From NCBI GenBank assembly GCA_947184155.2, contig CAMXCT020002062.1, forward strand, positions 53,400 to 117,399: a stretch of 64,000 nucleotides of DNA, in the 5' to 3' direction. The position numbers were made by a program, and so were the translations under genes. This DNA is from Cladocopium goreaui. Lineage: Eukaryota > Sar > Dinophyceae > Suessiales > Symbiodiniaceae. The notes below the pieces were generated by a model. It had not been told where the DNA came from. It saw only the letters and a list, made by a program, of their open reading frames with translations, and did not search any database. Below, one piece after another: positions 6,938-44,222 of this stretch. Each line of letters begins with the position of its first letter. Position 1 is the stretch's first letter.

Positions 6938-7085
6938 GAACTATTTCTAACATCGTTAGACATATCTTTATTTTAAATCTGTGAGATCGGAAATTCCCTC
7001 AGAATTATTTTATTTCCGTGGCCATGGCTCAAGAAATTTCAAGAACCAAACATTGATTTCTTACATTTGCAGTGAAAATTTTTCT
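6938..7085 (+). repeat. Element D repeat A1
   Basis: 148 bases, identical to A2 at 43006-43153. Nine bases from its left end is an inverted repeat, TCTAAC-ATC-GTTAGA, a candidate recombinase binding site. Bases 7086-7160 are D leader sequence up to the insertion of C. Confidence 0.9.
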
Positions 7086-7160
7086 TTTGACAAACACCAG
7101 GGAAATTGAGGATTAATGCGTTCATTTAAAAAAAGCGATTTGTCACGGCAATTTGCCCTT

Positions 7161-7613
7161 GCTTACGGTCAACGTGTTGATAGTGCATTAAAGTACAGCT
7201 GAAGAAAAGTTTGTTAACAAACTTTTAGCCTACCAGCCTTGCCTGCAACCAATGCAAATCTCGCGGCCCTGCCTAAACCAGGCGCGCAAGATAAACACCT
7301 GTGCGCAACCTTAGGAATAATCCAACTGGATAATGCCTGTAACCTAATGGTTGCCCCAACCCTTAGGCGCAGCCGCGCAACACTGACTGTAATAACGTAG
7401 ATGCCCGGCTCTTGGATACCGCACCTCGTATCCAAACCGTGTATTGCCAAACAACCTGCTGAGGCTTTGAGTGATTCAACCAAACTTGTCTTGCCAGTTT
7501 GATTTTGAGTTCGCAGTGTCTTTCCACAACATGTTTCCCCTTTCAGTTGGCAGTCAGAAAGCAGGTGAACTCATCTATCAAGTTGCCTTTTTGCTTCAAG
7601 GGAATTTTCGTGT
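7161..7613 (+). repeat. Element C repeat A1
   Basis: 453 bases with no gaps and about three mismatches to A2 at 32668-33120. Starts with CGGTCAACGTGTTGATAG five bases in, a motif shared with the left end of element A. Small reading frames on the minus strand inside it are identical in both copies and are not treated as genes. Confidence 0.92.
7205..7226. repeat. Perfect 22-base palindrome in element C A repeat
   Basis: Arms AAAAGTTTGTT and AACAAACTTTT meet with no loop. The second copy is at 32712-32733. It may be a regulatory or recombinase/host factor site; function unknown. Confidence 0.75.
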
Positions 7614-7772
7614 TGCCAGCGCGGGCGGCGCGTCGCAGTTGTGGACCTTATTTCTTGGTCATTCATCTTTTGTGAAAGTTGCTTTCAGTGGCACTTCGTT
7701 TTGGGCATCTGTGTCTGCTTTGCGATCGGCATTGCAAGTTGCTTTTCTTACTTTTGCACGGTTATTGGGGGT

Positions 7773-9973
7773 ATGCAGAAACAATCTGATGAGTCGTTTG
7801 GAGGAAGTCAAGCTCAACCTTTACAACCTGATGATGTTGTTGTACCTGTTGGACCTTACGACCTTGGTTTTGCTTTCCTTGACCTGCCGCTGATCAACCC
7901 CTGTCAGGTAGCCCATGCCGTGATGCCCATGACGTTGATGGTGTCGGACCGCAGGAGAATTTTGGGTACTTCGAGTCAGGTGCATCGGAGGCAAGCTCTT
8001 CTGTTTTACCAATTGACGGTTTTTGATGGTGTGTCATTGCAACAGTTTAACTGCACACAGGTCGAGAGTCATTCTGTTGTCCCTTCTGCGGTTTATGATG
8101 CCATTTTTGCCAGAAGTTTTTTCAGTGACCTTGATGCGACGAACATTAAACTGTCTTGGGTAGAAGGGATCTTCAAGGAAGTTTTTGCCGACGATCCCAT
8201 GCCTGGTACCTCAGTTCCGAAGATGCCCATTGCAGAGTTTTGCAGTTTTGAGATTGACCAGCCCCCGCTTTCAGTCGCAAGTTCAATGGCCTGCTTGGCC
8301 AGCCCTGCATTGAAAATGCCCGTTTTTGAGTCATGTGTTGCGAGTGGTGATGATTTGCATTTTCACTCCAAGCGTCGGCAACTCAGAGATGCTGCCATTG
8401 GTAAGTTTCTGGTTTTGCTTTGATACAACTTGGAGGCCAGCGTCACTGGCACACAGATTCTTGATGCGTGCCAAATGACCAGTAACAACATCATGCCCAT
8501 GAGATTGTCGATGCTGTTTTGGGGGTGGAGTCCCTGGCGACCTTAATCAAGAGGGCCAACGCCCGCTTGGCTTCTGTGTGATGAGTTACATGTGAGGGCA
8601 AGACAGACTCAAACCCCTTTTTCAGGAAGCTGTGGTGTGGGAATACTTCCAGTATCTTAAGTCTTTTGGTGCCCCTGCAGCAAAAGCTGATACCATGGTG
8701 TCGTTATTGAACTTTGCCGTTCATATCCTTGGTTTTCCGTGCCTGTCAGGTGCTTTGTCGAACAGGCGCCTTGTGGGTATCTGTGAGCTGATGCTTGCAG
8801 GTAAGAGGCTCCTCAAGCAAGCATTGGCTCTCACCGTTCACCAGGTCACTGCTTTACATGCCCTCCTGGAGAGTGTGAACAGACGCATCATTGGTAGGGC
8901 GCTGGTGGCCTACATTCTTCTTATGTTGTTTGGTCGTTGCAGGAACAGTGATCTTTTGGCCACCCACTCATTGACCCCTGATTTCAGTGTTGATTGCGGC
9001 TACGTGATCACCACCACATGTAACCAAGAATCTGGCGGGATTACATCCCTCAAAACAAGACTCCTTCCGATTGTTGTGCCTGTGAGGGGATTGGATGGCA
9101 GTATTTGACCATCAAAGGCGTTAGCAATCAATTCCGCGGCTGGGTGCCCTACCAGGTCTTTCAACGAGAGACCTATTTTGCCGCACCCGCAAATGGCTTT
9201 GGAGATTTCTTGCAGAGGGGTTTGAGGTTCTCAGAAGTTTCAAAGATCTTCGAACTTTTCTAGGCATTGAGAGTTTGAGTAAAAACGGCACTGATGAGGT
9301 TGTCTCAAGTCACAGCCTCAAGGCAACCATGTTGGCTTGGGCAGCTAGGTTGGGCTATCCCCCCAGACCAGGTCACTTTTAGGCAGGCTCACATCTTGCC
9401 TCAGCTTGACTTTCGCCATTTATTCAAGAGACCTGGCCTGCGCCCCAGTTGCAGAATTGCAGAAGATAATGGATGCAATCCATAATGGAACCTTTCTTCG
9501 GATGGTGAGAGATCAACGTTTTTCAAACCTCGAACTCCTGTGCCTCACCAAGAAAGCCTGGTTGTTGTGAAGAAGGAGGCTGTCACAGATGATGGTTTTA
9601 TTTTCATTTCCAATGCTGAGTGCAATGATCCATTGATGTGAGTGAACATTTCAGCAATGTGGGCGTCCCCACAGCAGATGATGGCGATGCCTCGATCGAT
9701 GGTGACTCAGACTCGGACTCCAGCAGCAGTGGGCCTAGCTCCTCAGCTAGTTCAGATGCAGTTGTCATGCAACCACGGGTGAAGCTTTTCAGGGCGAAGA
9801 TACTTGATCATGAGAGCTGGTACGTTCATGCAAAGTCAACTTTAGTCCACAGGTCCAATTGGGATGAACACAATGGTGTCAAGTTTCTTGTGTGTGGCAA
9901 ACGTTTGACTGCAGCATACGGTCCTTGCACTGAAGTTACTGCATGGAACACCTTGTTCAAGTCATGCAATTGA
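7773..9973 (+). pseudogene. Element C tyrosine recombinase, broken
   Basis: Begins around an ATG at 7773 (MQKQSDES). A WVEGIFKEVF segment near 8155 corresponds to the PWE(K/R)G motif of the other recombinases. The frame is lost near 8420 and pieces resume in other frames: HEIVDAVLGVE near 8490; the helical core with FGRCRNSDL (catalytic Arg) at 8632-9108; SSHSLKAT (HxxK box) near 9305; and IYSRDL (catalytic Tyr) near 9415. An acidic Ser/Asp-rich stretch and the C-terminal VCGKRL domain follow at 9638-9973. All catalytic positions are recognisable but spread over at least three frames, so the protein cannot be made from this copy. Relative of the recombinase ORFs at 13369, 19916 and 36201. Confidence 0.75.
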
Positions 9974-10303
9974 AAATGACGTGACCAAAACCGGTCGCAT
10001 GGCAGATGATGCGTTAAAATAAAGTGGCGCCTTTTGGTTGCAGCCACATTGTGGTTTCAGTGGACATGTCTCCACCGTTGTGCTCTCTTTTTATGCAATG
10101 GAGGGTGAGCTCCTTGATGGCAAACCGCCATGGTGAATTGGTTCAAGATGGGCATGCATTTGAGCATGCATGAAATACGATGGTTCTTCATTTCCGACAA
10201 GTCAGCCGGAATCAACCAAGTGTTCTTTATCGTTCATGTTTGGATGGTTTGATTTTACCACGCCATTAGGTACGCCAGCTCATCCTGCCTTCACTCCACT
10301 GCC
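9974..10303 (+). other. Element C recombinase-Gag spacer
   Basis: 330 bases between the recombinase remnant and the Gag start. I see no gene or clear regulatory signal. Confidence 0.5.
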
Positions 10304-12420: not shown

Positions 12421-12735
12421 GTTTGCGGTCAACTTGTTGATAGCTCCTTATTTCTGGTGTTGGTGAGAGAACTTGTTCTCGTGCTGCTGGTTGCCCTTCC
12501 TTGTTGCTGTCTCCTCCTGCTGGCTGGTGGATCACTCGAAGTAACAAGTCAATCTTGGAACCTGAACACTCAGTTGTAAATGTTTTCAACAGTGTACAGT
12601 TCAACAGTCATTTGCAGTTGTGCTTTACAATGCGGTTCAACTTGGTGAAGATCATGTTGGAACATTCAATGCTTGGCAACATTGGCTCCTAGGGACGGGT
12701 GGCGGGTAGCCTCTTACTTTTTTGGTAGAGGTTGC
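12421..12735 (+). repeat. Element A repeat A1
   Basis: 315 bases matching A2 at 29333-29647 with about two mismatches. Starts with CGGTCAACTTGTTGATAG five bases in, whose TCAAC-TT-GTTGA core is an inverted repeat. Bases 12736-13368 are leader without a supported gene. Confidence 0.92.
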
Positions 12736-13368
12736 ATGTCAACTTGTTTGGTTGCATGTTTTGTTTTCTTTTTTGTGACCACAACAGTGCCAATGAATTG
12801 TGTTTCAGAGGTTGTCAGTTTTGTTTACTCACTCAGATTGCCGCGGCGCTGTGCGCGTCTGCTTGGGTGCAAGGGAGCGGGGCCGCGTTGCCGCCAACAG
12901 CCCTTTGGCGCTCCGACCTGTGCCTGTGAGCTCAGCTACGGTGCGAGCTCGAGATTGCGGTTTTTTCTGGAGTGGGTTCATTTTTGCATTCAGCTTGATT
13001 TCCTGGATTCTGTCTGGCATTGTGCATGTGGATCAGCCTGGAGCGATTTGCAGAGTGTAATCGTCAGGAACATTTCATTATCCATTTCCCTGGCTGGTTT
13101 GAACTTCAGACTTTGATTTTGGCTCATTTGACTCCAGCGGAATCGCATCTCTACTTGAGGACTTGCATATTTTTGATTGTGGAGACAAAGGATTTGACTT
13201 TGACGGCCACTGCTGTGCGGATTCATTACTCAGGGTCAGGTTTTTCTGTACCAACCCCACCTGTGCAGCCTGCGCTGCAGTTAGCCGGTCAAGAAGGGGG
13301 AGTTTAGGACCAAGCGTTTTCATCTGATTTTGAGTCCAGTGGCAGTGCAGAGAGTGAAGCCATCAGTC

Positions 13369-15366
13369 ATGCCGTGGAGAGCCAACACTCTGACTAAATT
13401 TGCTGTAGGGAAATCTGACGATGCTATCAGTGACTCTGACCAGGGTTTTGAACATGTTGGCCTGGAACCCAGTGCTGTGAAGCCTGGTCAGTTGCATGGA
13501 GCTGGAACCTCAGAGGATGGCCTTTTTGGAGTTTTTGCGGAAAATGTGCATGAGACAGGGCGCAATGTGTTTCAATTGGAGGAGCCTGGTCTTGTTAAAG
13601 GTCGCTGCTCACCGAGAAAAGGAGCGTTGGACCTCAAGGCAAAACTGGTGCCGAGGGGTCCTACACTCAATGAGGCAAGCTTTGAACAGCACTTATCTCA
13701 TGCATTTCTCAGCACTAGAGGCCAGATTAAGGTTGTCATGCCATGGGAAAAAGGAGTTTCCAAAAAGATCTTCAAGAAACAGCCAGAAGATCAGTTGCAG
13801 AACCTTTTCAAGCAGCCTCGTCATTGGGTGGGGCTGGATGCAGTGCCTGAAGTGGAAACGAGTGAAGAGCTGTCGTCGGCTACTGGCAGTCGGCACCAAC
13901 TGGTCGGGGCCTTTTATGAGCATGCATTGTCATCAGTTTCTGATCAGTCCTTCTTGCAACAGCGTCAAAGCATTTTGGAAACTGCGGTAGAGAAATGGTT
14001 CTGCATCATTAGAGTCAACATGCTTGCCTCTTCAATTGGGCATGACATCATTGGTTTGGGCAGCATGGAGGAGCAGAGAAAAGGTGCATTTCAAATCATA
14101 GAAGCGGTGATAGGCGTCAGATCCAGAACCACTGCAATCACAAGGGCCAACGCCTTGCTCAAGTTCTTGCGGTGGAGAGCTGACAACTCAGACAGTGATG
14201 GTAAAGATTTTTCAGAGATAGAGGCATGGACCTATTTGATTCATTTGAGAGAGAGCAGCGCCGCGCCCACAAGGGCTACAAGTTTTCTGTCGGCTTGTGC
14301 CTATGCATTGCACGTATTTGGATTCTTGGGACTGGAAGCCATCTGCTCCAGCAGGAGGCTCAAAGGTTTGGCGGAGTTGATGCACGCTACAAAGGCTCCT
14401 CTGAAACAGGCCTTGGTTTTGACAGTTAGCCAAGTGATGTTCCTTCATGACAAGTTGGCTGCACAATCGTGCAACCATGTGGATAGAGCGATAGTGGCAT
14501 ATTTGTTGATTGCCCTTTATGGCCGTTGTCGCCATAGTGATCTGCAGAATGTCGAGGATGTCATTCTCGACTTTGGCCCTGAGGGTGGGTTCATGGAAAT
14601 AACAACCAAAACCCACAAGACAGCACGAACGGTGGCGCAGAAAACCAAGTTGCTGCCAGTGGTGATCCCGGCGGTTGGCATCAATGGCAGAGAATGGATT
14701 TCAGAGGCAAAGGGTGCCCTGGAAGAGTATGGCCTGAAGTTGGAAGGCCACATTGGAGGCCCGTTGTTCAGACCCCCAGGGTCATCGGGTGAGCCTCATT
14801 GCAAGAGAGGAATCACATCGGCAGAGGTCACCCGCTTCCTGCGCCTCATGCTTGAAGATGAGGCATCAGTCCAGAAGGATACAAGGGTGTCGTCTCACTC
14901 CTTGAAAGCCACGGTTTTGTCGTGGTGTTCAAAGGCTTGCATGGAAGCTTCAGACAGAGCGGTCTTAGGAAGACATGCAAGCGCTTATGGAGAGTCGAGT
15001 GCAGTCTACGCTCGAGACCTTGCAATTGGTGCTGTGTTTAAGTTGCAGGAGGTGCTGAAAAAGATCCATGGAGGAGAGTTTTGCCCTGATGCAGCCAGGT
15101 CAGGGTACTTCCCGTTGCAAGCCCAGACCTGTGAGGTCGAATTGCCGCTTGAAAGTGATGTGGTCAAAGTCGAAGAGGAACAGACTGAAGAGGAGCGGGC
15201 AACTGCTGCCCCCGACAAGGAACAATTGCCTGATGAAGAACAATTTGATGGCTCCTCTGGCAGTTCGGAGTCGATGGAAGGCTCCGATTCAGAGGATGAG
15301 GTGGTGGAGCCCACCCCCAAGTGTTTTAGACACTTCGCTGTTGGTCCTCTCTCAGGCGATTTGTGA
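13369..15366 (+). CDS. Element A tyrosine recombinase
   Basis: Cuts and rejoins DNA to insert the circular cDNA of the element. The start is placed at the ATG giving MPWRAN because element B's protein starts the same way (MPWRSN). A conserved MPWEKG motif lies near residue 124. The catalytic domain covers about 240-560: YGRCRHSDL (Arg I) near 385, SSHSLKAT near 509 (HxxK where most family members have HxxR), GRHAS near 535 and the nucleophile in VYARDL near 547. An acidic Ser/Glu-rich tail follows. The frame stops at 15366, but the domain expected next (SCGRSLNQ ... CKRCKSN) lies in another frame at 15363-15560, so this copy has a frameshift in its tail; the catalytic core is intact. About 665 residues. 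Confidence 0.88.
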   Translation: MPWRANTLTKFAVGKSDDAISDSDQGFEHVGLEPSAVKPGQLHGAGTSEDGLFGVFAENVHETGRNVFQLEEPGLVKGRCSPRKGALDLKAKLVPRGPTLNEASFEQHLSHAFLSTRGQIKVVMPWEKGVSKKIFKKQPEDQLQNLFKQPRHWVGLDAVPEVETSEELSSATGSRHQLVGAFYEHALSSVSDQSFLQQRQSILETAVEKWFCIIRVNMLASSIGHDIIGLGSMEEQRKGAFQIIEAVIGVRSRTTAITRANALLKFLRWRADNSDSDGKDFSEIEAWTYLIHLRESSAAPTRATSFLSACAYALHVFGFLGLEAICSSRRLKGLAELMHATKAPLKQALVLTVSQVMFLHDKLAAQSCNHVDRAIVAYLLIALYGRCRHSDLQNVEDVILDFGPEGGFMEITTKTHKTARTVAQKTKLLPVVIPAVGINGREWISEAKGALEEYGLKLEGHIGGPLFRPPGSSGEPHCKRGITSAEVTRFLRLMLEDEASVQKDTRVSSHSLKATVLSWCSKACMEASDRAVLGRHASAYGESSAVYARDLAIGAVFKLQEVLKKIHGGEFCPDAARSGYFPLQAQTCEVELPLESDVVKVEEEQTEEERATAAPDKEQLPDEEQFDGSSGSSESMEGSDSEDEVVEPTPKCFRHFAVGPLSGDL

Positions 15367-15560
15367 TGCACGATGTTTCGAAGCTGGTCCATTATGCAGA
15401 CCCAAGTTTTGTGGACGGTCGAGGAGCCAGGATGATTTCATGTGGCAGATCGTTGAACCAGAACTATAAATACATCACTCAATTTGACTCAGTTGATGTA
15501 TGCAAAAGATGCAAAAGCAACGCTGTCAAAGACGGCGCATTACCGAAAGCACTTGCGTAG
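15363..15560 (+). pseudogene. Element A recombinase C-terminal Cys domain, out of frame
   Basis: Contains HYADPSF, SCGRSLNQNYK and VCKRCKSN, aligning with the C-terminal domain of the recombinases of B (WCGRKKSANY ... CQQC), C (VCGKRLTAAY) and D (ICGRALSQTY ... CVQC). It lies in a different frame from the upstream recombinase, indicating one indel near 15360. Pattern CG(R/K) followed by CxxC suggests a small metal-binding module. Confidence 0.65.
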
Positions 15561-15967
15561 GGAGAAAAAGTGGCATGGAAGGGTCTTTCGGTCCTAGCTG
15601 CATGGCAGTTAAGAACATGTTGTGACCTTGTCCAAGATATACAAGGCAAGTGCTTGAAGGAATCTCAATTGCTTTTGGGAACTTGGGTTGCGTGGCACCC
15701 TGTCAATGGCATGCTTTGGAGCGTGGCTCATAAGCACTGCATGGAAGAGAGTATCAGCACGGCATTTGGATTGTTTTATCCTCATGTGATGCATGATCAT
15801 AATAGTTGAGTTATAGTACCAAATCAGAACTGTCCAATTCAATGAACTGGAAGGCAGGCAAAAAGGCAGGAAGTCTACCAGGTCGTTTCACAGTGTGCTG
15901 TTGCATCATTTTAGAAAAGCAATCTTTTCTTTTTAGGAGGGATTGTAGTCGCGCCAACGCATTGGCA
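15561..15967 (+). other. Element A recombinase-Gag spacer
   Basis: About 400 bases without a supported gene. The Gag frame is open from 15806, but family comparison puts the start at the ATG at 15968. Confidence 0.5.
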
Positions 15968-17188
15968 ATGGCAAGTTTACTGGATTCAGAAGCTCAGTTT
16001 GTCCAGCGCACCATCGATTTGAGGCTGTCAGATGAATTGAAGCGAAGCTTGAGCAGAGCTGGTTTGCAAACATTTGGAACGTTTGCCTATGCACATGGGC
16101 AGCCTGGACAGAATATTGCAGATGAAAGCTTTGAAGCATGGGTTACAAATCAACTGATGACGGGAGCCACAATAGCAGATGTTGCTGGTGCCAAACGTCT
16201 CCTATTTGAGAGTCAAACCATGGTCTTAGCATCCTTACAGGATCAGGTCAACGCTACTGACCCCTCTTCCATCAAGAAGGTGCCTGTGGCGGAGCGTGAA
16301 ACCAAGATGCGGGCAATCAAGAACAGACTGACCGGCCTCCTGATAGAAGGGCCGCTTGAACCTGGTCATGCACTCCTTGACACTACAGCAAGTATGATGC
16401 AACTCAATGAAATCAAATACATTCCTCCTGAAAAATGTATTTCGAGGACCCATGAAGTTTTGAATCAAAAGTCGGCAACGAAACAGTTGGATATCTCAGC
16501 AGAGAGTTTGATTGTGAAGGAAAAGCAGGATACCCCCGACATGACAGTCACTTCGGCGCTTCAAGTGCAAGAAGCCTTTCAGCGTCGCGGCATAGCGCTG
16601 GTGTTCGCCGACCTCATCACCCATGAGAGCTACACCAGGTACCTTACCACTCTTTTTGGACATTTGCATAGGGACCCACCTGCAGGATATGCAAGGACCA
16701 ATGTGAGCCAGCTTGTGAATGCTGACAAAGCTGTATGGCAGATGTTATTGGAGGAGGGTGTACGGCCCAAAAGGGATGAGACGGGGGTACTTGCTTTGGA
16801 TTCAAAGTTGTTGGAGAGTCTCCAGAGCTATCGTGTGTCTTTTTCCTTGCTGCCGATGATTGCCAAGAAAGACAGCACCCCGAGCCCATCCAAAACCACA
16901 AAACCTTCTGTGAGCCATGGTGGAAAGGGTGCAAACTTGTCCGTGCAAAAACCCTGGATCAAGTCGAAAGGTGGCAAAAAAGGTGGCAAGGGAAAAGTTC
17001 GAGTGCCGAACCACATTTTCAAGCTGGGTGGCACTGCGTCGAACCCAGCTGGAGAAGCGATTTGCTTTGGGTTCAATAGCAGTTCAGGATGTTCAGAAGC
17101 AGCTGATGGAGCGAAATGCAGACGTGGCCTCCATATCTGTGCAAAGTGCTATGGAACGCATGGAATCCAGAAGCACGAGCCCAATTGA
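15968..17188 (+). CDS. Element A Gag-like protein with C-terminal zinc finger
   Basis: Start chosen at the ATG giving MASLLDSEAQF, which matches the Gag starts of C and D. Conserved blocks: AYAHGQPGQ (residue 45), KRLLFESQT, VAERETKMRAIKNRLTGLL, IPPEKCISR (near 157), PPAGYARTNVSQLVNADKAVW and LDSKLLESLQSYRVSFSLLPM. The C terminus is Lys/Gly-rich and ends in a Cys/His cluster (CFGFNSSSGC, CRRGLHICAKC), a CCCH-like finger plus CxxC, likely for RNA binding. About 406 residues. It ends TGA CTA at 17186; the Pol frame continues in phase for 60 open codons up to the first Pol ATG, so Pol is probably produced by readthrough as a Gag-Pol fusion. I infer Gag from position and finger; no capsid fold can be proved by eye. 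Confidence 0.82.
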   Translation: MASLLDSEAQFVQRTIDLRLSDELKRSLSRAGLQTFGTFAYAHGQPGQNIADESFEAWVTNQLMTGATIADVAGAKRLLFESQTMVLASLQDQVNATDPSSIKKVPVAERETKMRAIKNRLTGLLIEGPLEPGHALLDTTASMMQLNEIKYIPPEKCISRTHEVLNQKSATKQLDISAESLIVKEKQDTPDMTVTSALQVQEAFQRRGIALVFADLITHESYTRYLTTLFGHLHRDPPAGYARTNVSQLVNADKAVWQMLLEEGVRPKRDETGVLALDSKLLESLQSYRVSFSLLPMIAKKDSTPSPSKTTKPSVSHGGKGANLSVQKPWIKSKGGKKGGKGKVRVPNHIFKLGGTASNPAGEAICFGFNSSSGCSEAADGAKCRRGLHICAKCYGTHGIQKHEPN

Positions 17189-17191
17189 CTA
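17186..17191 (+). promoter_or_regulatory. Candidate readthrough stop, element A Gag/Pol
   Basis: TGA CTA between Gag and Pol in one continuous frame. UGA followed by CUA is an established leaky context. The equivalents are TGA CTA at 39532 (D), TGA CAA at 23721 (B) and TGA TTA at 11533 (C). Confidence 0.6.
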
Positions 17192-32327: not shown

Positions 32328-32667
32328 TGTGAATAATGTATGTGGCACCGACTGGCTGGTGCAAGTGCTTGGCATTGGAGCCGTCCGTTGGATCGAGCGG
32401 AGCCTGAATGAACGGATCAAGCCATGAGATCCAATGAATATACTATAGATGGCTACAGAAGGTTTTTCAAATGCTTGGCCAATGAGGCCTGTACCTGGAC
32501 AACTCCCATCGTTGTCAAAGGAAAAAGTGTGCTGCGCGTTCGTTCAGACAGCAGTTGTTTGATGCATGGCAGTTTTTAGCTTTTGGTGTTTGTCGGTTTT
32601 GCACTTTTAAGTTTCCACAATGTAACAAGGAGGTATTGACTGGTAGGCGCCGTAAGCTGGACTTTAA
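32311..32667 (+). repeat. Element C repeat B1
   Basis: 357 bases matching B2 (33822-34178) with about two mismatches. Ends actttaa, abutting A2. Confidence 0.92.
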
Positions 32668-33222: not shown

Positions 33223-33830
33223 TTGTTGACAGTCCCCATGCAATCCGAGTTGACATTACTCGCAGCTGGCATCAGCATCGTGTTGCAATATATGAATTCC
33301 TCGGTACAACAAGCCAACCGTAGTGACTGGACTCTCAGGGCTTCGAGGTGTGAAACTATCGACGAAATTCTGAAAGCCTGCGCCATTTTGTTGGAGTGCT
33401 GCGGGCGCTCGGACTTCATGCGGCCTATTTACCACTTATGGACACTTTGCAGCAACGCAATGTTCTTGTTCGAGCGACAGTGGTGGCCCGAGCAACCTAC
33501 GGAAACAAGGACACACATCACTACACCGCAGGTGCCTCTGAAATTATCGGCATTGCTACGGCCTGGATGGAGAGATCAACATCAGTTGGTCAGACTCGGG
33601 ATGGCCTCCCTTGTGATTTTCCGTGATTGGTTTACAGTTGTTTTGATGCTCATTTGCACCAGGATGTCCTCAACATCGTGAAGGACTCCCTCCTGATCCT
33701 CCAGACCGCGGTCGACCTTTTCGATTTATATGAAGCAACTCATCCCCAGCCTACTGCTGCACTGCCTGATGTTGAGGACACCCCTGAGCCCTCCTCCACA
33801 GACCCTTCCGCGCCCACAGGCGGGGTATGA
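33223..33830 (+). pseudogene. Element C small ORF between A2 and B2, frameshifted
   Basis: Not a recognised family. Pieces in different frames read ETIDEILKACAILLECC, LHAAYLPLMDTLQQRN, GIATAWMERS and QDVLNIVKDSLLILQTAVDL, then an acidic Pro/Ser/Thr-rich tail ending at 33830 just inside B2. Element D has an intact ORF of similar character (helical, Leu/Phe-rich, acidic tail) in exactly the same place (43195-43866). Homology is suggested by position and composition, not proven. Confidence 0.45.
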
Positions 33831-34178
33831 CTCAGTGATGTGAATAATGTATGTGGCACCGACTGGCTGGTGCAAGTGCTTGGCATTGGAGCCGTCCGTT
33901 GGATCGAGCGGAGCCTGAATGAACGGATCAAGCCATGAGATCCAATGGATATACTATAGATGGCTACAGAAGGTTTTTCAAATGCTTGGCCAATGAGGCC
34001 TGTACCTGGACAACTCCCATCGTTGTCAAAGGAAAAAGTGTGCTGCGCGTTCGTTCAGACAGCAGTTGTTTGATGCATGGCAGTTTTTAGCTTTTGGTGT
34101 TTGTCGGTTTTGCACTTTTAAGTTTCCACAATGTAACAAGGAGGTATTGACTGGTAGGCGCCGTAAGCTGGACTTTAA
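33822..34178 (+). repeat. Element C repeat B2 (right end)
   Basis: Copy of B1. Ends gactttaa; element D sequence resumes at 34179. Confidence 0.92.
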
Positions 34179-35759: not shown

Positions 35760-36200
35760 GAAAAAAAGAAGGGGTTTGTCGCTGCTTTGTTTCCTTGTGA
35801 CTTTCGTCCCACGTTGTGATGCTATTTTAACTTTGCATGTTCCCTTTCTTTTGTTTCTTGCTTTTCATACTTACGTCGCAGTTGCTGTTAACCCCTGGCA
35901 GGACCTCCTTCTTCGATCTTCTTCAGCTTCGACATCTTCGACACCTTCGTGGAGTCATTGATCAGCCTTCCTTTTCACGTGATTAATTTACGAAACTTCC
36001 AATTGGCTTTCATCAATTGATGTCAATTTTCAGTTTGCATCATGCTGCTTTTTAATCTCAATTTCTTCTTGCTTGACAGGACCACAATTGTGGCCCTCTG
36101 GATCGTCGACCACTTGGTCCGTGCACAATTGTGCAAAATTCTCTCAACTCAATTTCTTACAACCTCCAATTCTTCTTATTCATCTAGGCTCAATTCCAAA

Positions 36201-38132
36201 ATGGATTCTTCATTCCATATTGAATTTCGCACAGGTCGAGCCACCGTTGAAAGCCATGGCTCTCGTCCTGTCTTTCAAATGCCTTGGGAGCGAGGAATTT
36301 GGAGACGTATTTTCAATCCTCACCCATCCCCCCTCTCAATTCTTAGTCATTCCATTCCTCTCGATTCATCTTCATTTCAATCATCTTTCGTTCCAAATTC
36401 TTCCTCAAATCTCTTCTCAAATTCTTCGATCAATTCACATCTCAATTCCAATTTACCTTCTTTCTCAAATGAGGCAATTTCCTCTATCAATTCATCTTCC
36501 CCTCCTTTAAACGCTCCTACACAATCTTTCTGGTCCTCTTTCTTTGGCTATTCTGATCTTCAACAAGGACGCTCTGATGGACTTCGTCATCTCGCAATTT
36601 CAAGGTTTATTTCCATGCTGGCCTCCACCTCAGGATCAACTTTGTTCATGTCCTCCTCAGATCCATGGGACCTACATGACAGTTTTAGCGCTGCACTGTC
36701 GATGAAGGCTACAAGTACCATCGTTAAACGATCCATGGATCTTCTTCGTTTCAAATCCTGGTGTGATCTACATGACAAACAGTTCATCCCATTTTCAGAA
36801 AATGTTCTTTGGCAGTTTCTTCGTGATTTACAACATTCTGCTAAACCATCTGGTTTACAGTCGATCCTTCAATCAGTGAACTTTGCCATTCACGTTCTCG
36901 GATGCCAATATGAAGGAATTTCACTGGCTTCAGTACGAATCAGAGGCATCTGTGCAGGCCACAAGGCTCTTGCCTTACAAATCAAGCATGCACCACCACT
37001 CTCAGTCGATCAAATTATCCATTTGGAAACGCTGTGCTGCTCCTCTTGTGATCAGTATTTGAAGCTTCTCTATGGATCTATTTTGATTGCCTTATATGCA
37101 CGATCTCGATGGAAGGACATACAAGGAGCACATTCCATCGACTTTGACCCAGATTCTTTTGCACCGCAATACATCGAGTTACCATCTCAACATTTCAAAA
37201 CTGCTGCCATGCTGGCCAAGAAGTTGCACTTTTTACCAATTACGGCTATTACTTTCTCATTATCCGGACAACCTTGGATTCATCATTACATTCAAGCCCG
37301 TCGCCATTTGAAGTTACCAATATCAGGCAAACTTTCTTCACCATTTCTTCCTGTCAAAGCTGATGATCAATTATCCAATGAGCCTGTCACTTCTTCTCAG
37401 ATTACGAAGTTACTACGAGAACTTTTCCAGAATGATCTTGTTCGTTCACATTCTTTGAAGCATACCTGTTTGAGTTTTGCAGCCAAAAGAGGTCTGGATC
37501 CACATACTCGAAAATTATTGGGATATCACCTGGACAGAAGTGAAGTAACTCTGGCAACCTACAGTCGTGATCTTCTTGCAGAACCTCTACGACAACTCAA
37601 ATTTCTACTTGTAGAGATCCAGACCGGCATCTTTCTTCCAGATTCCACCCGTTCAGGGTACTTCCCAGATACATCAATAGATGAAGCGCCAGCCAAAGCT
37701 GACTCAGATGAATCCGTTTTTGAATTTCCGCATTCTGATCCTGAAAACCATCAGGTTGCACCAGATGCTTCAGAACCACAAGATGAAGTCCCTGCTTACA
37801 CCGAAGAGCTCTGCGGCCACGAGTCGTCATCTTCATCATCTTCATCCTCTTCGTCTTCATTCGTTGACGACGAAGACCAGGTTGATCTTGTGCCTGATTT
37901 TCCTTCTTCATTACAGAACAAGTGTTTTCAACATGTGGAGAAATTTCTCCCTGTCAAACACAAACAAACTCATCGTTTACACCTTTTGGTGAATGCTGAG
38001 CATACAAGATTGATTTGTGGCAGAGCACTTTCACAGACGTATGAACGTCTTGACCATTTCCCTTCACACCCTCTGCCGACATGTGTTCAATGTTTCGCCA
38101 GCAAATTAGTTGGCTCATATGACGAATGCTGA
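36201..38132 (+). CDS. Element D tyrosine recombinase
   Basis: About 643 residues from MDSSFHIEF; the frame extends upstream but this ATG precedes the conserved region. FQMPWERGIWRRIF lies near residue 27. A Ser/Asn/Pro-rich stretch follows. The core-binding domain starts near 170 (STIVKRSMDLLRFKSW, also in B as STLVKRSMDYYKLAVW). Catalytic domain: LYARSRWKDIQ (Arg I) near 300, RSHSLKHTCL (HxxK) near 417, LGYHLDRS near 440 and the Tyr in TYSRDLL near 454. The tail has RSGYFPD, an acidic stretch, a Ser run and then RLICGRALSQTY ... TCVQCFASK, the conserved Cys domain. The frame is intact. Expected role as for the recombinase of element B. Confidence 0.9.
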   Translation: MDSSFHIEFRTGRATVESHGSRPVFQMPWERGIWRRIFNPHPSPLSILSHSIPLDSSSFQSSFVPNSSSNLFSNSSINSHLNSNLPSFSNEAISSINSSSPPLNAPTQSFWSSFFGYSDLQQGRSDGLRHLAISRFISMLASTSGSTLFMSSSDPWDLHDSFSAALSMKATSTIVKRSMDLLRFKSWCDLHDKQFIPFSENVLWQFLRDLQHSAKPSGLQSILQSVNFAIHVLGCQYEGISLASVRIRGICAGHKALALQIKHAPPLSVDQIIHLETLCCSSCDQYLKLLYGSILIALYARSRWKDIQGAHSIDFDPDSFAPQYIELPSQHFKTAAMLAKKLHFLPITAITFSLSGQPWIHHYIQARRHLKLPISGKLSSPFLPVKADDQLSNEPVTSSQITKLLRELFQNDLVRSHSLKHTCLSFAAKRGLDPHTRKLLGYHLDRSEVTLATYSRDLLAEPLRQLKFLLVEIQTGIFLPDSTRSGYFPDTSIDEAPAKADSDESVFEFPHSDPENHQVAPDASEPQDEVPAYTEELCGHESSSSSSSSSSSSFVDDEDQVDLVPDFPSSLQNKCFQHVEKFLPVKHKQTHRLHLLVNAEHTRLICGRALSQTYERLDHFPSHPLPTCVQCFASKLVGSYDEC

Positions 38133-38277
38133 TCGAAAAAGCAGATGTGCTTGATCATGATGCTTTCTCATGACCTTTGCATTTTTCTTCCCTTTTCTTT
38201 TTCATTTCCTTTCTGCAAATTTCCTCTCAAGAATCCCATTCGAACTTTTGATTCTTCAGCGAATTCTTCTTTCAATC

Positions 38278-39534
38278 ATGGCACTTCTGGATAGCAAAGC
38301 CCAATTTTCTGCAAGAGCCAGAGAAATTGGACGCTCTACTCCATGTGTAAATTCCCTCCAAGTACATGGCATCGATTCTCTCAATTCTATGGCCTTTGCT
38401 GTTGGAACTACGCCAGGAGAATGTTCATCGCAAGACTTCCAACAATTCATTTTGGATAAGAACATCGTTCTTGAGGGATCAGATGAGTTCCTTGTGAAGA
38501 GGTTGATTTTTGAGGCACAGACCCTCTTTATGACAACCATTCAATCTCAAGTGCTATCAGCAGGTTTGCCTGGAGGGTCCGACTCAACCACCAAGAAGCT
38601 TCCACCGGTTGAGCGACAAGCACGAATCGTTGAACAAAAGCAGCGTCTAGTCGGTGTGATCATTCAAGGCGAAACTGAGCCATCATTTGAACTTATCGAT
38701 TTGGCATATGCGATGATTGAGTCCAAATCTATCAAATTCATTCCACCTCATCGCTGTACCAAGAGAGATACAGAGCTCGTGGAGAACACCAACAAGGATA
38801 AGGAAGTCCTTACCATTGAGCAGGGTCGTCTTACATCTAAGAAATCATCGTTGCCAAATACCTCAACTTCAGACGCTTTGAAGCTCTCCAATTGCTTTCT
38901 TAGACGAGCCCTAGCTTTGGATCTTGCTCAAGTTACTTCTTTCTCCCAGATCAACAAGTACCACCAATTGCTTCTTGCTCAGCTCTCAGTCAAAGCTCCA
39001 ACTGGTTATGTTGCGGCCAGCCTCCAACAGATCATCCAAGCGGATAAATTCTTTTGGACCAAACTTGCGGAGAAAGTTGGCATTGAGATCTCGCCTCAGA
39101 CAGTGGACGTCTTCATCCAAGAAATCATGGTCAGCCCAGAATTTTCTCTCCATTTCCTTCCCCGCCCGGAAGCTCCTTCTGTGGCTCCATCTCCGAAGAC
39201 TACTACACCCTCGTCCTCGTCCTATGGTAAGAACTCCGATCGACCTCGTTCAGAACGTGATGGTCCCTACAAGGGCAAGACTTCGAAAGGTAAAGGCAAA
39301 GGCAAAGGCAAACCGCCTTCTGTCTCCATGCCTGCACCGCTTCGTGGTTTGAACCCACGCACCCGTAACAACAAACCTAAATGCTTTGATTTCAACATGA
39401 GCCATGGGTGCCCCAACAAGGATTCGTGTTCCAAAGGTGATCATTCTTGTATGTCATGGTCGTGTGGCGACGCCAAGCACTCCTACCAAACATGCCATGC
39501 CAAAAACAAGAAGCCTGGCCAGAACCAGGCTTGA
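38278..39534 (+). CDS. Element D Gag-like protein with C-terminal zinc finger
   Basis: 418 residues from ATG (MALLDSKAQFSARAREIG); the frame is open further upstream but this start matches the family. Shared blocks: KRLIFEAQT, PPVERQARIVEQKQRLVGV, EPSFELIDLAY, KFIPPHRCTKRDTEL (near 155) and APTGYVAASLQQIIQADKFFW. The C terminus has a KGKTSKGKGKGKGK stretch and a good CCCH finger (C-x8-C-x5-C-x4-H: CFDFNMSHGC ... CSKGDH). The stop is TGA CTA at 39532; Pol follows in the same frame. Expected to package the RNA. Confidence 0.84.
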   Translation: MALLDSKAQFSARAREIGRSTPCVNSLQVHGIDSLNSMAFAVGTTPGECSSQDFQQFILDKNIVLEGSDEFLVKRLIFEAQTLFMTTIQSQVLSAGLPGGSDSTTKKLPPVERQARIVEQKQRLVGVIIQGETEPSFELIDLAYAMIESKSIKFIPPHRCTKRDTELVENTNKDKEVLTIEQGRLTSKKSSLPNTSTSDALKLSNCFLRRALALDLAQVTSFSQINKYHQLLLAQLSVKAPTGYVAASLQQIIQADKFFWTKLAEKVGIEISPQTVDVFIQEIMVSPEFSLHFLPRPEAPSVAPSPKTTTPSSSSYGKNSDRPRSERDGPYKGKTSKGKGKGKGKPPSVSMPAPLRGLNPRTRNNKPKCFDFNMSHGCPNKDSCSKGDHSCMSWSCGDAKHSYQTCHAKNKKPGQNQA

Positions 39535-39537
39535 CTA
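39532..39537 (+). promoter_or_regulatory. Candidate readthrough stop, element D Gag/Pol
   Basis: TGA CTA, the same hexanucleotide as in element A, with 11 open codons between it and the first Pol ATG at 39568. Confidence 0.65.
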
Positions 39538-42036
39538 TCTTCTTCTTGCTCAGAACATGCACAGCCGATGCATGAAGAACCATTGCCCTCGAAGTCAGTT
39601 GCAGGTTCACATCCGAATTCGTCAGCAGCCAGCAGAATGCCATCCATCGGTGAGCTCCTCATCATTGAAGTATTTGCTGGGTCGTGCAACCTTTCCTCAA
39701 CCTTTGTAAAGTTTGGCTTCCAGGCCATTGCGGTTGACCATACACAGTCTCACCAATTTCGCGTAATGCAATTGGACCTTACCATTCAGCATGACCAATC
39801 TTTGTTATTGGATCTTATTCATCACCAAAAGCCTTTTCTCGTTTGGATGGCACCTCCGTGCGGTACAGCATCACGGGCCAGAAATATCCCTGCAAAGAAC
39901 AGGTTTAGCAATGCTTTTGCAAGCCCATTGAGATCTGACCTATGCCCAGATGGACTACCAGATCTATTTGGCATGGACCTCGAACGGGTCTTGTCAGCTA
40001 ATTCTCTTTATGAACTTTGTGAACGTATCGCATCTCTTTGCGACCTACTTGGCCTCTATTGGGTGATTGAGAATCCCTTCGATTCTTTATTCTGGTTTAC
40101 TTCTTGGATCTCTCAACGACATCAGAATTTCCCCAAAATTTTGTTACACAATTGTATGTTCGGTGGCTCTCGCCCGAAACGCACTGGCTTATTAGCAAAT
40201 TTTGACCTTACGTCTTTGGCGATTCTATGTGATGAAGCTCATGAACATGCTCCTTGGCGATCCTTCTCTGAAGATTCTATTCATTTTTATACGGCTGAAG
40301 AAGCAGCATATCCTCTTCAACTTTGCTCTGCAATCGCTTCTCTCCTGTCTGACATCGCTCTTCATCATAATTTTTGTCCACCACCATCTCACATTTTCGA
40401 TTTTGACACAAGCGACCCACGTCATGCTCGACATCTTCTTCGAGGATCAGTTGGCATTCAACCTCGTGGTGCTCAATTTTCTTTCTTACCTTCGTCTTTT
40501 CAAGACCTCTGGGTTGCTCAATCTAAGTTACCTGACATTTATATTCCAAATGACAAACTTCATTCTCCTTTTCTCAAAGGGACCGTTTTCCCTCCTGAGC
40601 TTCAGTTTGATGATGGGTCGTCTTCAAAAGCTCAGTATTCAATTCGGACAGATGACTCACGAAAGATGAAGGTTCTTGTTCCAATTTCTCCATGTACCTA
40701 CCTGCAGAAGTTGGCAGGGACAAAACATCCGAGCCAAATTAATTCTTCCTCTTGGGGTTGGTATTCTCAAGCCATCGAAGACATGATATCAAAGCCTCAA
40801 GACGAATACCTGAGGGAACAAGCACAAACTCTGAAGTCCATTTTGGACCGGGCGAAAGAACTGAACAATTTGGAAAGGAAGCGCAAGCATAATTGTGATG
40901 GTGTCGTCAAGGCCATCAATTCGAAGAAGCGTCTCTGTCTTCTTGAAGAGTTGCTGTCTTCAATACAACATCCAGACGTGGACATCGTTGGGGATCTGGA
41001 AGCTGGCTTCAGACTGACTGGATGGCTTAACCCTTCTGGACTTTTCACAAGACAAACAACGCCTCCACAGATCTCAAAGTCTACTCTTGAATCGCTTTCT
41101 CCCTTTCTCAATCAATCTGTAATTTTCAGGTGTGAACGGAACTCTTCCGGAGAGTTGGCCTCGGATCTTCTGGAGATCACGTTGGAGGAAGTCCAGAAAG
41201 GTTGGATCGTCGAGGAAGTCAATGTGGAGGACCTTGATAAAGGAGATGTACTGTCACCAAGGTTCATCATCCAGCAGGGTGACAAATCCAGAGCCATTGA
41301 CGATTTCTCCTTTTCAAGTATCAATGCAACCATTGGATCCACTGACAAGATTGCTTTGCAAGGGGTTGACGAGATTGCAGCCCTCATTAAGCGCCTGATG
41401 GGATCAGGCATGGACGATCTGCTGGGTCGTACATACGACATGGAGGCCGCTTACCGCCAGCTTCCTATTCATGCGAGTGAGCGTGGGAAAGCGATCATTT
41501 GCGTTTTCGATCCCAACAGTAAGAAGCCAAGACTGTTTAAAATGGCAACTATGCCATTTGGCGCTATTGCTTCCGTTCATGCGTTTTTGAGGACAGCAGC
41601 AGCCATCAACAACATCTGCTGTACTCTCTTAAAGGTCCCTGTCACCTCATACTACGACGACTTCTCTGTCGTCACAAGGAAGTCGTTGGCCAAGGGTACA
41701 GACCTAGCCATAAGGACGATTTTCGAAGTCCTGGGACTCAACCTCAGCACAGCGGAGAAGAAAAACCGAGACTTTGCTCGAGTCTTCAGCGCTCTGGGTG
41801 TTGCATTTGACCTGCATAAGATGCCTGGCGACTCTTTTGAGATCAAGAACACCGATCAACGAGTTGAAGATCTTGTCAAAAGGATTGGATCAGTCCTCTC
41901 CTCTGGCAAGATATGTGGTCGTGATGCAAAGGGGCTAAGGAGTAGACTTAGCTTCGCGTGCTCGCAATTGTACGGGCGGACGGCCGCATCCGTAATTAAA
42001 AGATCTGGGAAGGTACGAGTGTCAGAAACACTCTAA
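39535..42036 (+). CDS. Element D Pol: methyltransferase-like domain and RT (frame ends before RNase H)
   Basis: Numbering from the ATG at 39568. Methyltransferase-like domain: LLIIEVFAGSCNLSSTF near 30, AVDHT, MAPPCGTASRAR near 93 (best-preserved motif IV of the set) and WVIENPFDSLFW near 167. The linker reads AINSKKRLCLLEELLSSIQHPD. RT: GRTYDMEAAYRQLPI near 617, ATMPFGAIASVHAF near 660, catalytic YYDDF near 696 and FSALGVAFDL. It stops at 42036 after RSGKVRVSETL; the expected next sequence (CQKHSKRIDPNTRRLLEIM) lies in another frame from about 42014. This is either a recent indel or a programmed shift; since A and B carry RNase H in the same frame, an indel is more likely. Confidence 0.87.
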   Translation, partial: LSSSCSEHAQPMHEEPLPSKSVAGSHPNSSAASRMPSIGELLIIEVFAGSCNLSSTFVKFGFQAIAVDHTQSHQFRVMQLDLTIQHDQSLLLDLIHHQKPFLVWMAPPCGTASRARNIPAKNRFSNAFASPLRSDLCPDGLPDLFGMDLERVLSANSLYELCERIASLCDLLGLYWVIENPFDSLFWFTSWISQRHQNFPKILLHNCMFGGSRPKRTGLLANFDLTSLAILCDEAHEHAPWRSFSEDSIHFYTAEEAAYPLQLCSAIASLLSDIALHHNFCPPPSHIFDFDTSDPRHARHLLRGSVGIQPRGAQFSFLPSSFQDLWVAQSKLPDIYIPNDKLHSPFLKGTVFPPELQFDDGSSSKAQYSIRTDDSRKMKVLVPISPCTYLQKLAGTKHPSQINSSSWGWYSQAIEDMISKPQDEYLREQAQTLKSILDRAKELNNLERKRKHNCDGVVKAINSKKRLCLLEELLSSIQHPDVDIVGDLEAGFRLTGWLNPSGLFTRQTTPPQISKSTLESLSPFLNQSVIFRCERNSSGELASDLLEITLEEVQKGWIVEEVNVEDLDKGDVLSPRFIIQQGDKSRAIDDFSFSSINATIGSTDKIALQGVDEIAALIKRLMGSGMDDLLGRTYDMEAAYRQLPIHASERGKAIICVFDPNSKKPRLFKMATMPFGAIASVHAFLRTAAAINNICCTLLKVPVTSYYDDFSVVTRKSLAKGTDLAIRTIFEVLGLNLSTAEKKNRDFARVFSALGVAFDLHKMPGDSFEIKNTDQRVEDLVKRIGSVLSSGKICGRDAKGLRSRLSFACSQLYGRTAASVIKRSGKVRVSETL

Positions 42037-42643
42037 GAGGATAGATCCGAACACAAGGAGACTTCTTGAGATCATGATCTCGCACTTGAAGGTCGGTATG
42101 CCGAGGAAAGTCTTTTTCGGACGGTCTGAAGTAGAACATGTATTCACAGACGGATCCTTGGAGCCAGCTGGTGACTCGGATTCAGTTGCTGGAGTCGGTG
42201 CTGTGTTGGTGAGTGAACGTGGAGATTGTCTCAAGGCCTTTTCATTTTCGCCTACCCGTGAGCAAGTTCAAACTGTTGGTGGGAAGATTCATCAATTGGA
42301 GATTCTGCCAGTCATCATGGCTTGCATTGCCTTTGAGGAAGAATTGAGGTCGAAGCGCGTGTTCTTTCACGTCGACAACTCTGCGGCACAATCAGCTTTG
42401 ATCAATGCCGGCTCCATCAACCATTCATCAAGATCCCTTTTCTACCTCTTTCTTGATCTGGAACAAAGGCTTCAATTCGTACCCTGGATATCCAGAGTGA
42501 ACTCCTCTTCTAACATTGCGGATGGACCATCCAGGGACTCACTGGATGAAGTACGAGACCTTGGCGCTGAATGTTTTGTTTTCCCATTGGAAGTCTTTGA
42601 CTTCATCATCAAGGAATTTCTCAGAAAACTTGAAGGTTCATAA
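42014..42643 (+). CDS. Element D RNase H, shifted frame
   Basis: Follows the RT in another frame. From the ATG at 42074 it contains HVFTDGSLEPA near residue 23, QLEILPVIMA, FFHVDNSAAQSA and SNIADGPSRDSL, giving the Asp-Glu-Asp-Asp set of an RNase H that removes RNA from the cDNA hybrid. It ends 24 bases before repeat B1. Independent translation is unlikely; treat it as the displaced C-terminal part of Pol. Confidence 0.82.
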   Translation, partial: YECQKHSKRIDPNTRRLLEIMISHLKVGMPRKVFFGRSEVEHVFTDGSLEPAGDSDSVAGVGAVLVSERGDCLKAFSFSPTREQVQTVGGKIHQLEILPVIMACIAFEEELRSKRVFFHVDNSAAQSALINAGSINHSSRSLFYLFLDLEQRLQFVPWISRVNSSSNIADGPSRDSLDEVRDLGAECFVFPLEVFDFIIKEFLRKLEGS

Positions 42644-42666: not shown

Positions 42667-43005
42667 TGGTGTTGAGATTTGATTCTTATGACGAGGCATT
42701 TCCATTATTACAAATCTATACTTTGATTCTAAACCTCATCGTTGGTTTTTCATTTTCGATCCCGAGACAACTCCTGTGTGTTGAAGTTCCCACCAGACAT
42801 CTGATTCTCAGAAAATTGGTAGCCCAGATCGATTTCAAATATGTCTCATTGAATTCAACTGATGACTCGTTTCCCCATCGTGGTTAAAAAAAAGAAGGAT
42901 GCGCGGTGTCAAACTTGTCTTGGTGTGAGTTGATTGGAAAGATGAGTCTTTCCTTCTTGTTTCTTTTGGGTCTTGAATTTCTTGAGCCCCAAAGATTTAT
43001 AATAA
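42667..43005 (+). repeat. Element D repeat B1
   Basis: 339 bases; three mismatches to B2 (43884-44222). Ends gatttataataa, abutting A2. Confidence 0.92.
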
Positions 43006-43153
43006 GAACTATTTCTAACATCGTTAGACATATCTTTATTTTAAATCTGTGAGATCGGAAATTCCCTCAGAATTATTTTATTTCCGTGGCCATGGCTCAA
43101 GAAATTTCAAGAACCAAACATTGATTTCTTACATTTGCAGTGAAAATTTTTCT
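43006..43153 (+). repeat. Element D repeat A2
   Basis: Identical to A1 (6938-7085), 36 kb away across the nested insertions. Confidence 0.92.
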
Positions 43154-43194
43154 CCCTCCCTCCTCACCCTCTTCTTTTGTTCTTCTTGCCAGGT

Positions 43195-43866
43195 ATGGAT
43201 ACTCTGAGCGAGACTCTTCGTGAATGGCTTTCGATGCACATCGATAACGGACAACGACTCGTTCGTCTTCTCAATATCGTTTGTTTCCTTCTTGAGAACA
43301 TCTTCGACAGTTTCACAGGCCGCCATTGGGCCTTCCTTTGTTCAGTCATCCATTGTTCATTTTCTGGACATTTTGAACCAATTTCCAGCTTCTTTGTCGA
43401 TCATCCTTCTACCTCCGTCTTCCTCTTCGCAAATTCTCTTCTCCCTCCAGGCCTTGATCAATTCATTTCAAATTTATCCTTTCTGAATTGTTTAATTCGC
43501 GAACTCATTTCCTTTCATCAATTCAAGAGACTCCCAAATCCGGAGCTCCTTGTTTCCTCCTTGTTTGCAGCAGCTGACTGTCTTTCAGTCGCCATGCTAA
43601 CCAAATTCGTGAAATCTGTACCTGTTTTGCTTCCACAATCTCAATTTGAAGACAATGTTTCCTTTTCGCCAGAACTCAGTCTCATTACAGAGATTGACTC
43701 TGAATCGCAACCTGATCAACTAGAAGTTGATCCCACTGAAGCTACTCATATACAACAACAATATGAAGATCATCTTGCTCAACAAAATGACCAAGATGCA
43801 TTTGATTTTGAACAATTTCATTCTGGCTACCATGGAATGTTTTGGGACGATCTGGATGGGAACTAA
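43195..43866 (+). CDS. Element D small ORF between A2 and B2
   Basis: About 223 residues from MDTLSETLREWLS; not a recognised family. Rich in Phe, Leu and Ser with several hydrophobic helices (LVRLLNIVCFLLENIF, SLFAAADCLSVAML) and an acidic, Gln/Asp-rich tail ending GMFWDDLDGN. It lies wholly in the spacer between A2 and B2, so it sits downstream of the B1/A2 junction and would need its own transcript or a transcript through the repeats. Possible roles (accessory, membrane or transactivator-like) are guesses. Element C has a decayed ORF at the equivalent place. Confidence 0.55.
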   Translation: MDTLSETLREWLSMHIDNGQRLVRLLNIVCFLLENIFDSFTGRHWAFLCSVIHCSFSGHFEPISSFFVDHPSTSVFLFANSLLPPGLDQFISNLSFLNCLIRELISFHQFKRLPNPELLVSSLFAAADCLSVAMLTKFVKSVPVLLPQSQFEDNVSFSPELSLITEIDSESQPDQLEVDPTEATHIQQQYEDHLAQQNDQDAFDFEQFHSGYHGMFWDDLDGN

Positions 43867-43883
43867 TACAGTTGGTTCTGATT

Positions 43884-44222
43884 TGGTGTTGAGATTTGAT
43901 TCTTATGACGAGGCATTTCCATTATTACAAATCTATACTTTGATTCTAAACCTCATCGTTGGTTTTTCATTTTCGATCCCGAGACAACTCCTGTGTGTTG
44001 AAGTTCCCACCAGACATCTGATCCTCAGAAAACTGGTAGCCCAGATCGATTTCAAATATGTCTCATTGAATTCAACTGATGACTCGTTTCCCCATCGTGG
44101 TTAAAAAAAAGAAGGATGCGCGGTGTCAAACTTGTCTTGGTGTGAGTTGATTGGAAAGATGAGTCTTTCCTTCTTGTTTCTTTTGGGTCTTGAATTTCTT
44201 GAGCCTCAAAGATTTATAATAA
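43884..44222 (+). repeat. Element D repeat B2 (right end)
   Basis: Copy of B1. The inverted repeat TTGAG-C-CTCAA at 44199-44209 lies 13 bases from the end; B has a similar one at its right end. Host sequence starts at 44223. Confidence 0.92.

Follow-up and report, generated by a model that had tools for sequence, protein, structure and literature searches.

How does a retrotransposon that carries a tyrosine recombinase (YR) enter new DNA without duplicating its target? The question is raised by a stretch of 64,000 nt of the genome of the dinoflagellate Cladocopium goreaui (assembly GCA_947184155.2, contig CAMXCT020002062.1, positions 53,400 to 117,399 of the forward strand), hereafter the window, numbered below from its first base. 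An earlier note, made from the letters alone, had described in it a four-deep nest of YR retrotransposons with intact split direct repeats, and had proposed comparing the window with itself and searching the assembly for the empty sites. Self-BLAST of the window and inspection of the junctions yielded four sets of paired direct repeats, each in the order A1-genes-B1-A2-spacer-B2 and nested as D>C>A>B; the self-comparison and the junction print-outs agree on this arrangement, and every repeat pair was recovered by alignment. The elements, named D, C, A and B, represent four families of YR retrotransposons with split direct repeats that were inserted successively: D first, then C, A and B. A conserved fold at the junction where the B repeat meets the A repeat (the B|A junction) is well supported, more firmly than its role or the strand that forms it.

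All four elements lie on the plus strand. The outermost, D, spans positions 6938–44222, with A1 at 6938–7085 and A2 at 43006–43153 (0 mismatches in 148 nt) and with B1 at 42667–43005 and B2 at 43884–44222 (3 mismatches in 339). Within D, element C occupies 7161–34178 (A1 7161–7613 and A2 32668–33120, 3 mismatches in 453; B1 32311–32667 and B2 33822–34178, 2 in 357). Element A, within C, runs from 12421 to 30159 (A1 12421–12735 and A2 29333–29647, 2 mismatches in 315; B1 28974–29332 and B2 29801–30159, 2 in 359), and B, the innermost, interrupts the pol frame of A at 19455–27773 (A1 19455–19695 and A2 27192–27429, over 241 nt a single mismatch and a gap of 3 bases; B1 26882–27191 and B2 27464–27773, no differences in 310). 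Identity within the repeat pairs was 98.3–100% over 148–453 bp, far above chance. All four elements start with G; A, C and D end in TAA, and B in GAC. Summed over both repeat pairs, the divergence of B was 1 substitution and one 3-base gap in 551 nt; substitutions numbered 4 over 674 nt in A, 5 over 810 nt in C and 3 over 487 nt in D. The innermost element is the youngest by this measure, which does not order A, C and D. Ten other copies with the layout of D were fetched from the genome, eight of them complete. About 410 bp present directly after A1 in all ten are missing from the window copy (region 7085–7161), which has probably been internally deleted. Between its A2 and B2, D carries an open frame of 240 amino acids (aa; 43144–43866), which measures 240–242 aa in nine of the ten sister copies.

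The joined flanks of each element were searched for in the host genome assembly (1.17 Gb in 6,202 contigs, the window being part of contig C2062), and each of the four target sites was found uninterrupted elsewhere in the same genome. The DNA join that the earlier note had obtained by removing B, and from which it had read the reverse-transcriptase motif DLKSAYKQL, is crossed by 31 of 34 matches, all in A-family sequences, the other three being the two window halves and one partial match; in each of ten loci inspected base by base the join was free of gaps. For C, 18 of 41 matches, all in D-family sequences, run across the join, and the six loci inspected deviate by about one base near it, within a short C/T run. 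Removal of A gives a join crossed by five of seven matches, in C-family relatives; four loci inspected fall into register when the start of A is placed at 12421, the corrected position. The host site of D had 259 candidates, of which 40 were scored, and all 40 run across the join; eight of ten inspected were exact and two had a 3-base gap there. A host copy that the note had placed near 46046 does cross the D join, although it covers only 45 bp (46041–46085) at 91% identity. D entered a repetitive host sequence, of which at least 40 further copies exist, and a host repeat of about 340 bp, in two copies 86% identical (45184–46430), adjoins the insertion.

The elements are multicopy, and the nest might in principle be an assembly artefact in which repeat-bearing contigs were wrongly joined. 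However, the flanks rejoin to sequences present uninterrupted elsewhere in the genome, and a second nest, on contig C6138, also rejoins in register. In this one, an A-like element lies within the spacer of another D copy: its left 40-nt flank matches the D copy of the window at 43309 (1 mismatch) and its right 40 nt match it at 43349 (10 mismatches), so the two D halves abut exactly. Nesting thus recurs in this genome, and together with the empty sites the second A-in-D nest makes a wrong assembly very improbable. On a further contig, C1246, an insert of 9.4 kb interrupts a B-family copy (L065, L066); the ends of this insert are unlike those of the window elements, and it may have produced a 3-bp target duplication.

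The ends of the elements, in the window and in the genome copies, could be located for 22 left and 37 right termini, and all lay at one base per family (13, 5, 3 and 1 left ends and 15, 8, 12 and 2 right ends for D, A, B and C, respectively). The left ends exclude a 5′-truncated D copy (C1102) and a B-like end that was not found (C2002). The right ends exclude a D copy without B2 (C1038), an A-like copy that was not scanned (L058), one end not found (L098), three copies with no usable repeat pair (L068, L078 and L082), and two duplicates, L070 (of L069) and L085 (of L084), each with the flank of its counterpart. The flanks showed no clear consensus. In the 16 copies with both flanks available, matches between the flank ends measured 2 nt in four, 3 nt in one, 4 nt in one, 5 nt in none and 6 nt in one, the longer ones falling in A or AT runs. 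The scarcity and composition of these matches, together with the empty sites, indicate that no target-site duplication is made. The claim that the ends can be placed to the base, with no target duplication, is thereby upheld to near-base precision.

Nor did the insertions share a core with the element: the flank repeated the 3 nt of the element next to it at none of 22 left and none of 37 right ends, and no straddling triplet was shared in 16 pairs of flanks. DIRS1-like elements are YR retrotransposons with inverted terminal repeats and no target duplication, for which a circular intermediate is proposed, as is recombination at 3 bp that the target has in identical form (PMC3266345). The window elements differ from that model: a DIRS1-like 3-bp core was rejected on the above counts, and no inverted pair of at least 40 nt (20-nt seed) of the kind that would form inverted terminal repeats as in DIRS1 was found in the window. 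An ordinary double-strand exchange with a mismatched overlap resolved at random was also rejected, since it predicts two alternative ends and one was seen, among ends located by terminal matching.

The fold lies at the place where B1 meets A2, which is equally the place where the two ends of the element would meet in a circle. The last 13–18 nt of the B repeat are close to the reverse complement of a stretch lying 27–31 nt inside the A repeat. In all four families the same parts are seen, namely an outer stem, an inner stem, an apical loop of 27–31 nt with a mini-hairpin in it, and a hairpin on the A side, and in all four the end of the element coincides with the inner edge of the B-side arm. 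The folded junction of A covers 29300–29408, with the crossover after 29332 (z score −10.3 with DNA parameters); that of B, 27161–27266, with the crossover after 27191 (−4.0, DNA); that of C, 32637–32745, with the crossover after 32667 (−5.8, DNA); and that of D, 42970–43117, with the crossover after 43005 (−6.5 over 148 nt with RNA parameters, −3.2 over 140 nt with DNA parameters). When the 14-nt arm match was compared with 5000 random sites, 0.06% did as well for D, 0.04% for C and none for A, placing these three beyond random expectation. Over 110 nt, 0, 2 and 6 of 1500 random sites were as stable as the junctions of A, C and B, respectively, which makes these three exceptional. Ends fused to host flanks folded less well, in every element, than the B|A junction. 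A search of Rfam gave no match in the window.

Covariation between relatives supports the fold for the junctions of A, B and D. The rows compared were six of nine A-like and six of twelve B-like junctions (the rest being near copies) and eight of twelve D-like ones (without two near copies and without the weakly folding L107 and L108); the counts cover these three groups and not the two C junctions. In A-like junctions 14 pairs had changed on both sides, against 5.0 after shuffling (0 of 500 shuffles); the number was four against 1.9 in B-like junctions (22 of 500) and seven against 4.9 in D-like junctions (38 of 500), where changed cells also amounted to 16 against 7.1 (0 of 500). Further pair types exceeded the shuffles in A-like junctions (0 of 500). 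Because these very sequences served to derive the structures, the sliding control is biased in favour of the latter. Model R1, constructed from A-like junctions, scored 124.5 bits on the junction of A, itself a member, and model R2 scored 116.6 bits on that of B, likewise a member. R1 was built without C and nonetheless matched both C junctions end to end, at 30.6 bits (the window junction; E value 1.5e-4) and 29.3 bits; it found no B or D junction in the 27 sources searched (the window and 26 loci). L068 and L082, which lack a usable repeat pair, were matched by R2 and R1, while L078 had neither a repeat pair nor a match to R1 or R2.

The strand that would fold can be approached through stability and through the mismatches within the stems. 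The sense strand folded more stably in 23 of 26 distinct junctions. Single in-stem mismatches in these 26, with duplicates dropped, comprised 12 G-T, 1 A-C and 14 others (15, 1 and 14 with duplicates kept). This suggests a single-stranded sense fold for A- and B-like elements, but not for D-like ones.

On these grounds, the element's own YR might recombine a folded single strand of complementary DNA (cDNA), formed by the B|A junction, into the target through an exchange of one strand; we take this to be a real possibility, though we stop just short of calling it probable. The RNA of the element would be copied into a circular cDNA containing the B|A junction, one strand of which would fold. 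The YR would recognise the paired arms, cut one strand at the border of the stem-loop and join the cut strand to a single strand of practically any DNA; the insertion would then be completed by replication or repair. An exchange of this kind would explain together the lack of target duplication, the lack of a shared core and the invariant ends. In the attC sites of integrons a folded strand is recombined, with the crossover beside the stem and by one-strand exchange; these sites belong to bacterial gene cassettes, are used by a different recombinase family and have a preferred target. The likeness of the window junctions to attC would be one of working only, and membership is not claimed. The broader proposal, in which a dinoflagellate retroelement with a YR of the HxxK type would integrate in an integron-like manner, with a folded single cDNA strand entering near-arbitrary DNA by one-strand exchange, is offered tentatively and with some doubt.

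A number of observations weigh against this proposal. As to the ends, they were found by matching terminal sequences, so that shifted ends could escape, and in several copies (e.g. L071, L072 and L075) the flank shares 1–2 bases with the start of the element, these ambiguous ends having been set by the other copies of the family. As to the fold, the arm pair of B alone was not beyond chance (10% of 5000 random sites; its pairing is bulged), and over 110 nt 887 of 1500 random sites were as stable as the junction of D, which thus does not stand out. Two D-like junctions, L107 and L108, have weak folds (z −3.0 and −2.9), and L108 lacks the outer stem. The sequences compared are related, and the covariation counts therefore overstate their independence; further pair types showed no excess over shuffles in B-like junctions (377 of 500) and a partial one in D-like junctions (44 of 500). 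The R1 scores on C (29–31 bits) were no higher than those on antisense A-like junctions (29–37 bits). The strand preference is weak: six of the 12 G-T mismatches come from two near-identical A copies, the 12 D-like junctions show no bias (1 G-T, 2 A-C and 19 other in-stem mismatches), and over the longer span the antisense strand was the more stable in five of these 12.

A fold formed by sense RNA would, moreover, explain the sense bias equally well. B1A2 of the genomic RNA might serve as a structured signal for packaging, or for priming or template joining during reverse transcription, with integration proceeding by ordinary double-strand YR recombination; it is the sole place in the linear element with both arms adjacent, so that it would be contained in a full transcript, and the greater stability of the sense strand fits such a role. 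What this leaves unexplained is why, in all four families, the element stops at the inner edge of the B-side arm, and how it inserts without a shared core; we consider this reading unlikely. Alternatively, the arms could be inverted half-sites at which the YR acts on double-stranded DNA, with an overlap too short to show in the flanks. Inverted repeats around the crossover are indeed the usual design of YR sites, matching half-sites would also covary between families, and the absence of a strand preference in D-like junctions agrees with this. The usual spacer of such sites, however, measures 6–8 nt, as against 27–31 nt here; only C and L084 show, by eye, arms placed symmetrically on either side of the crossover; the side hairpin is one-sided; and A-like junctions do show a sense bias. 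A role of the arms as half-sites seems somewhat less likely still. One-strand exchange of a folded cDNA strand remains the explanation that we favour.

Elements A, B and D have the same gene order: a YR frame, a gag-like frame, a single in-frame TGA, and pol, which comprises a methyltransferase (MTase)-like region, reverse transcriptase (RT) and RNase H. Element C contains pieces in the same order, as judged by eye, but broken. The YR open frames encode 703 aa in D (36021–38132, stop to stop, before gag), 693 aa in A (13285–15366) and 716 aa in B (19814–21964), all on the plus strand, as are the gag-like and pol frames with the TGA between them, which cover 38161–42643 in D (where pol shifts frame near 42000 in the window copy), 15806–28993 in A (pol being split by element B) and 22521–26897 in B. 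The gag-like frames of A, B and D carry clusters of cysteine and histidine, recognised by eye. Pfam matched RVT_1 in the pol of B with an E value of 4.3e-5, below the curated cut-off; in a relative, P0053, the RVT_1 match was above that cut-off and was accompanied by a sub-threshold match to RT_RNaseH. The RNase H segments of A, B and D have 24 invariant columns in common. Reverse transcriptase and RNase H, as expected of YR retrotransposons (order DIRS), are thus present on sequence grounds. Named relatives occur in Durusdinium trenchii, Symbiodinium natans and C. goreaui (Symbiodiniaceae), while in IMG/VR none of 15 pattern stretches was related to the window elements.

The YR region gave no Pfam match beyond chance level, and NCBIfam and PDB sequence searches gave it no name either. 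Since Pfam does not find the YR, its recognition rests on a motif set and on a weak profile similarity to XerC/XerD (P 8.9e-5 in the global comparison, 0.008 and 0.034 in local ones). Among 116 aligned proteins, three of them from the window, the motif columns held R in 111 of 112, K in 106 of 109, H in 101 of 105, H in 95 of 100 and Y in 95 of 100. The column of the second arginine held lysine in 96 of the 102 proteins with a letter there, and arginine in one. The usual YR tetrad is R-H-R-Y, with HxxR; recombinases of the window type show HxxK instead. The ordered set R-K-H-K-H-Y, the RT match and the XerC/XerD similarity support the earlier assignment of these elements to the YR retrotransposons. 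The conserved MTase-like region at the start of pol (plus strand; D 39535–40524, A 17489–18388, B 23724–24623) has a PPCGT-like motif, seen by eye, in which C-G-T is invariant in 30 aligned proteins. It had no match in Pfam or NCBIfam, and the best methyltransferases in a PDB profile search reached E values of only 0.35 and 0.52.

The in-frame TGA between gag and pol is followed by CTA in D (39532–39534) and A (17186–17188) and by CAA in B (23721–23723), in each case on the plus strand. TGACTA was found in all 11 D copies inspected, including that of the window, and TGACTC in two A-like relatives; two further stretches (L089 and L091) did not span the gag-pol border. UGA-CUA is a known leaky stop context, so readthrough of this UGA is likely, and the stop is a candidate for programmed readthrough between gag and pol. 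Reassignment of UGA was unsupported, the stops inside RT frames elsewhere including TAA, TAG and TGA.

Outside the nest, at 48736–50753, ankyrin repeats and a dual-specificity phosphatase domain are encoded in frames that probably belong to a host gene. A piece of a Copia-type reverse transcriptase (RVT_2) lies on the minus strand at 58824–59801.

Among the elements described in print, the nearest relatives of those in the window appear to be SymbioDIRS-Dnmt3 (de Mendoza et al. 2018, PMC5890265). They too are found in Symbiodiniaceae, and have A-coding-B-A-B repeats and a separate YR frame; RT and a methyltransferase domain are combined in one Pol frame, and two YR/Pol orders coexist (PMC5890265). 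The host lineage, the repeat layout and the separate YR frame are thus alike. SymbioDIRS-Dnmt3, however, has a cytosine methyltransferase, while the MTase-like region of the window matches no Pfam methylase. The main text of PMC5890265 contains none of the words hairpin, palindrom, target site, nested, gag and frameshift. The layout A1-genes-B1-A2-spacer-B2, found in the window elements and in the sister copies of D, is that of PAT and Ngaro. According to PMC4157794, PAT, Kangaroo and Toc have split direct repeats and a YR, and Pat1 has a zinc-finger Gag; unlike in these, the YR frame of the window elements comes first and is on the same strand. In the main text of PMC4157794, hairpin and palindrom do not occur. 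Ngaro elements have the structure A1-[ORFs]-B1A2B2, where ORFs are open reading frames, and a YR, and their insertion into other elements (virophages) has been reported (PMC8547959). Their order is Gag, RT/RH (RNase H) and YR (PMC8547959), whereas in A, B and D the YR comes first and pol begins with an extra conserved region. Neither hairpin nor palindrom is found in the main text of four papers on such elements, and literature searches for folded sites in them yielded no report recognised as one, a weak negative, as the main reviews of YR retrotransposons lay outside the texts covered.

As a nest, the arrangement adds one more case to a known kind; the variation that is new lies in the fold combined with core-free insertion. 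The junction fold, the missing shared core, the YR-first order and the in-frame UGA all go beyond what the earlier note had described. Integration of YR retrotransposons without target duplication has so far been modelled as recombination of a circle junction through a short common core. In the several families compared here, insertions lack a core, each family keeps to a single end position and a fold that covaries sits at the crossover, which makes the mechanism directly testable. The junction fold may also serve as a structural signature for locating the ends of such elements in dinoflagellate genomes.

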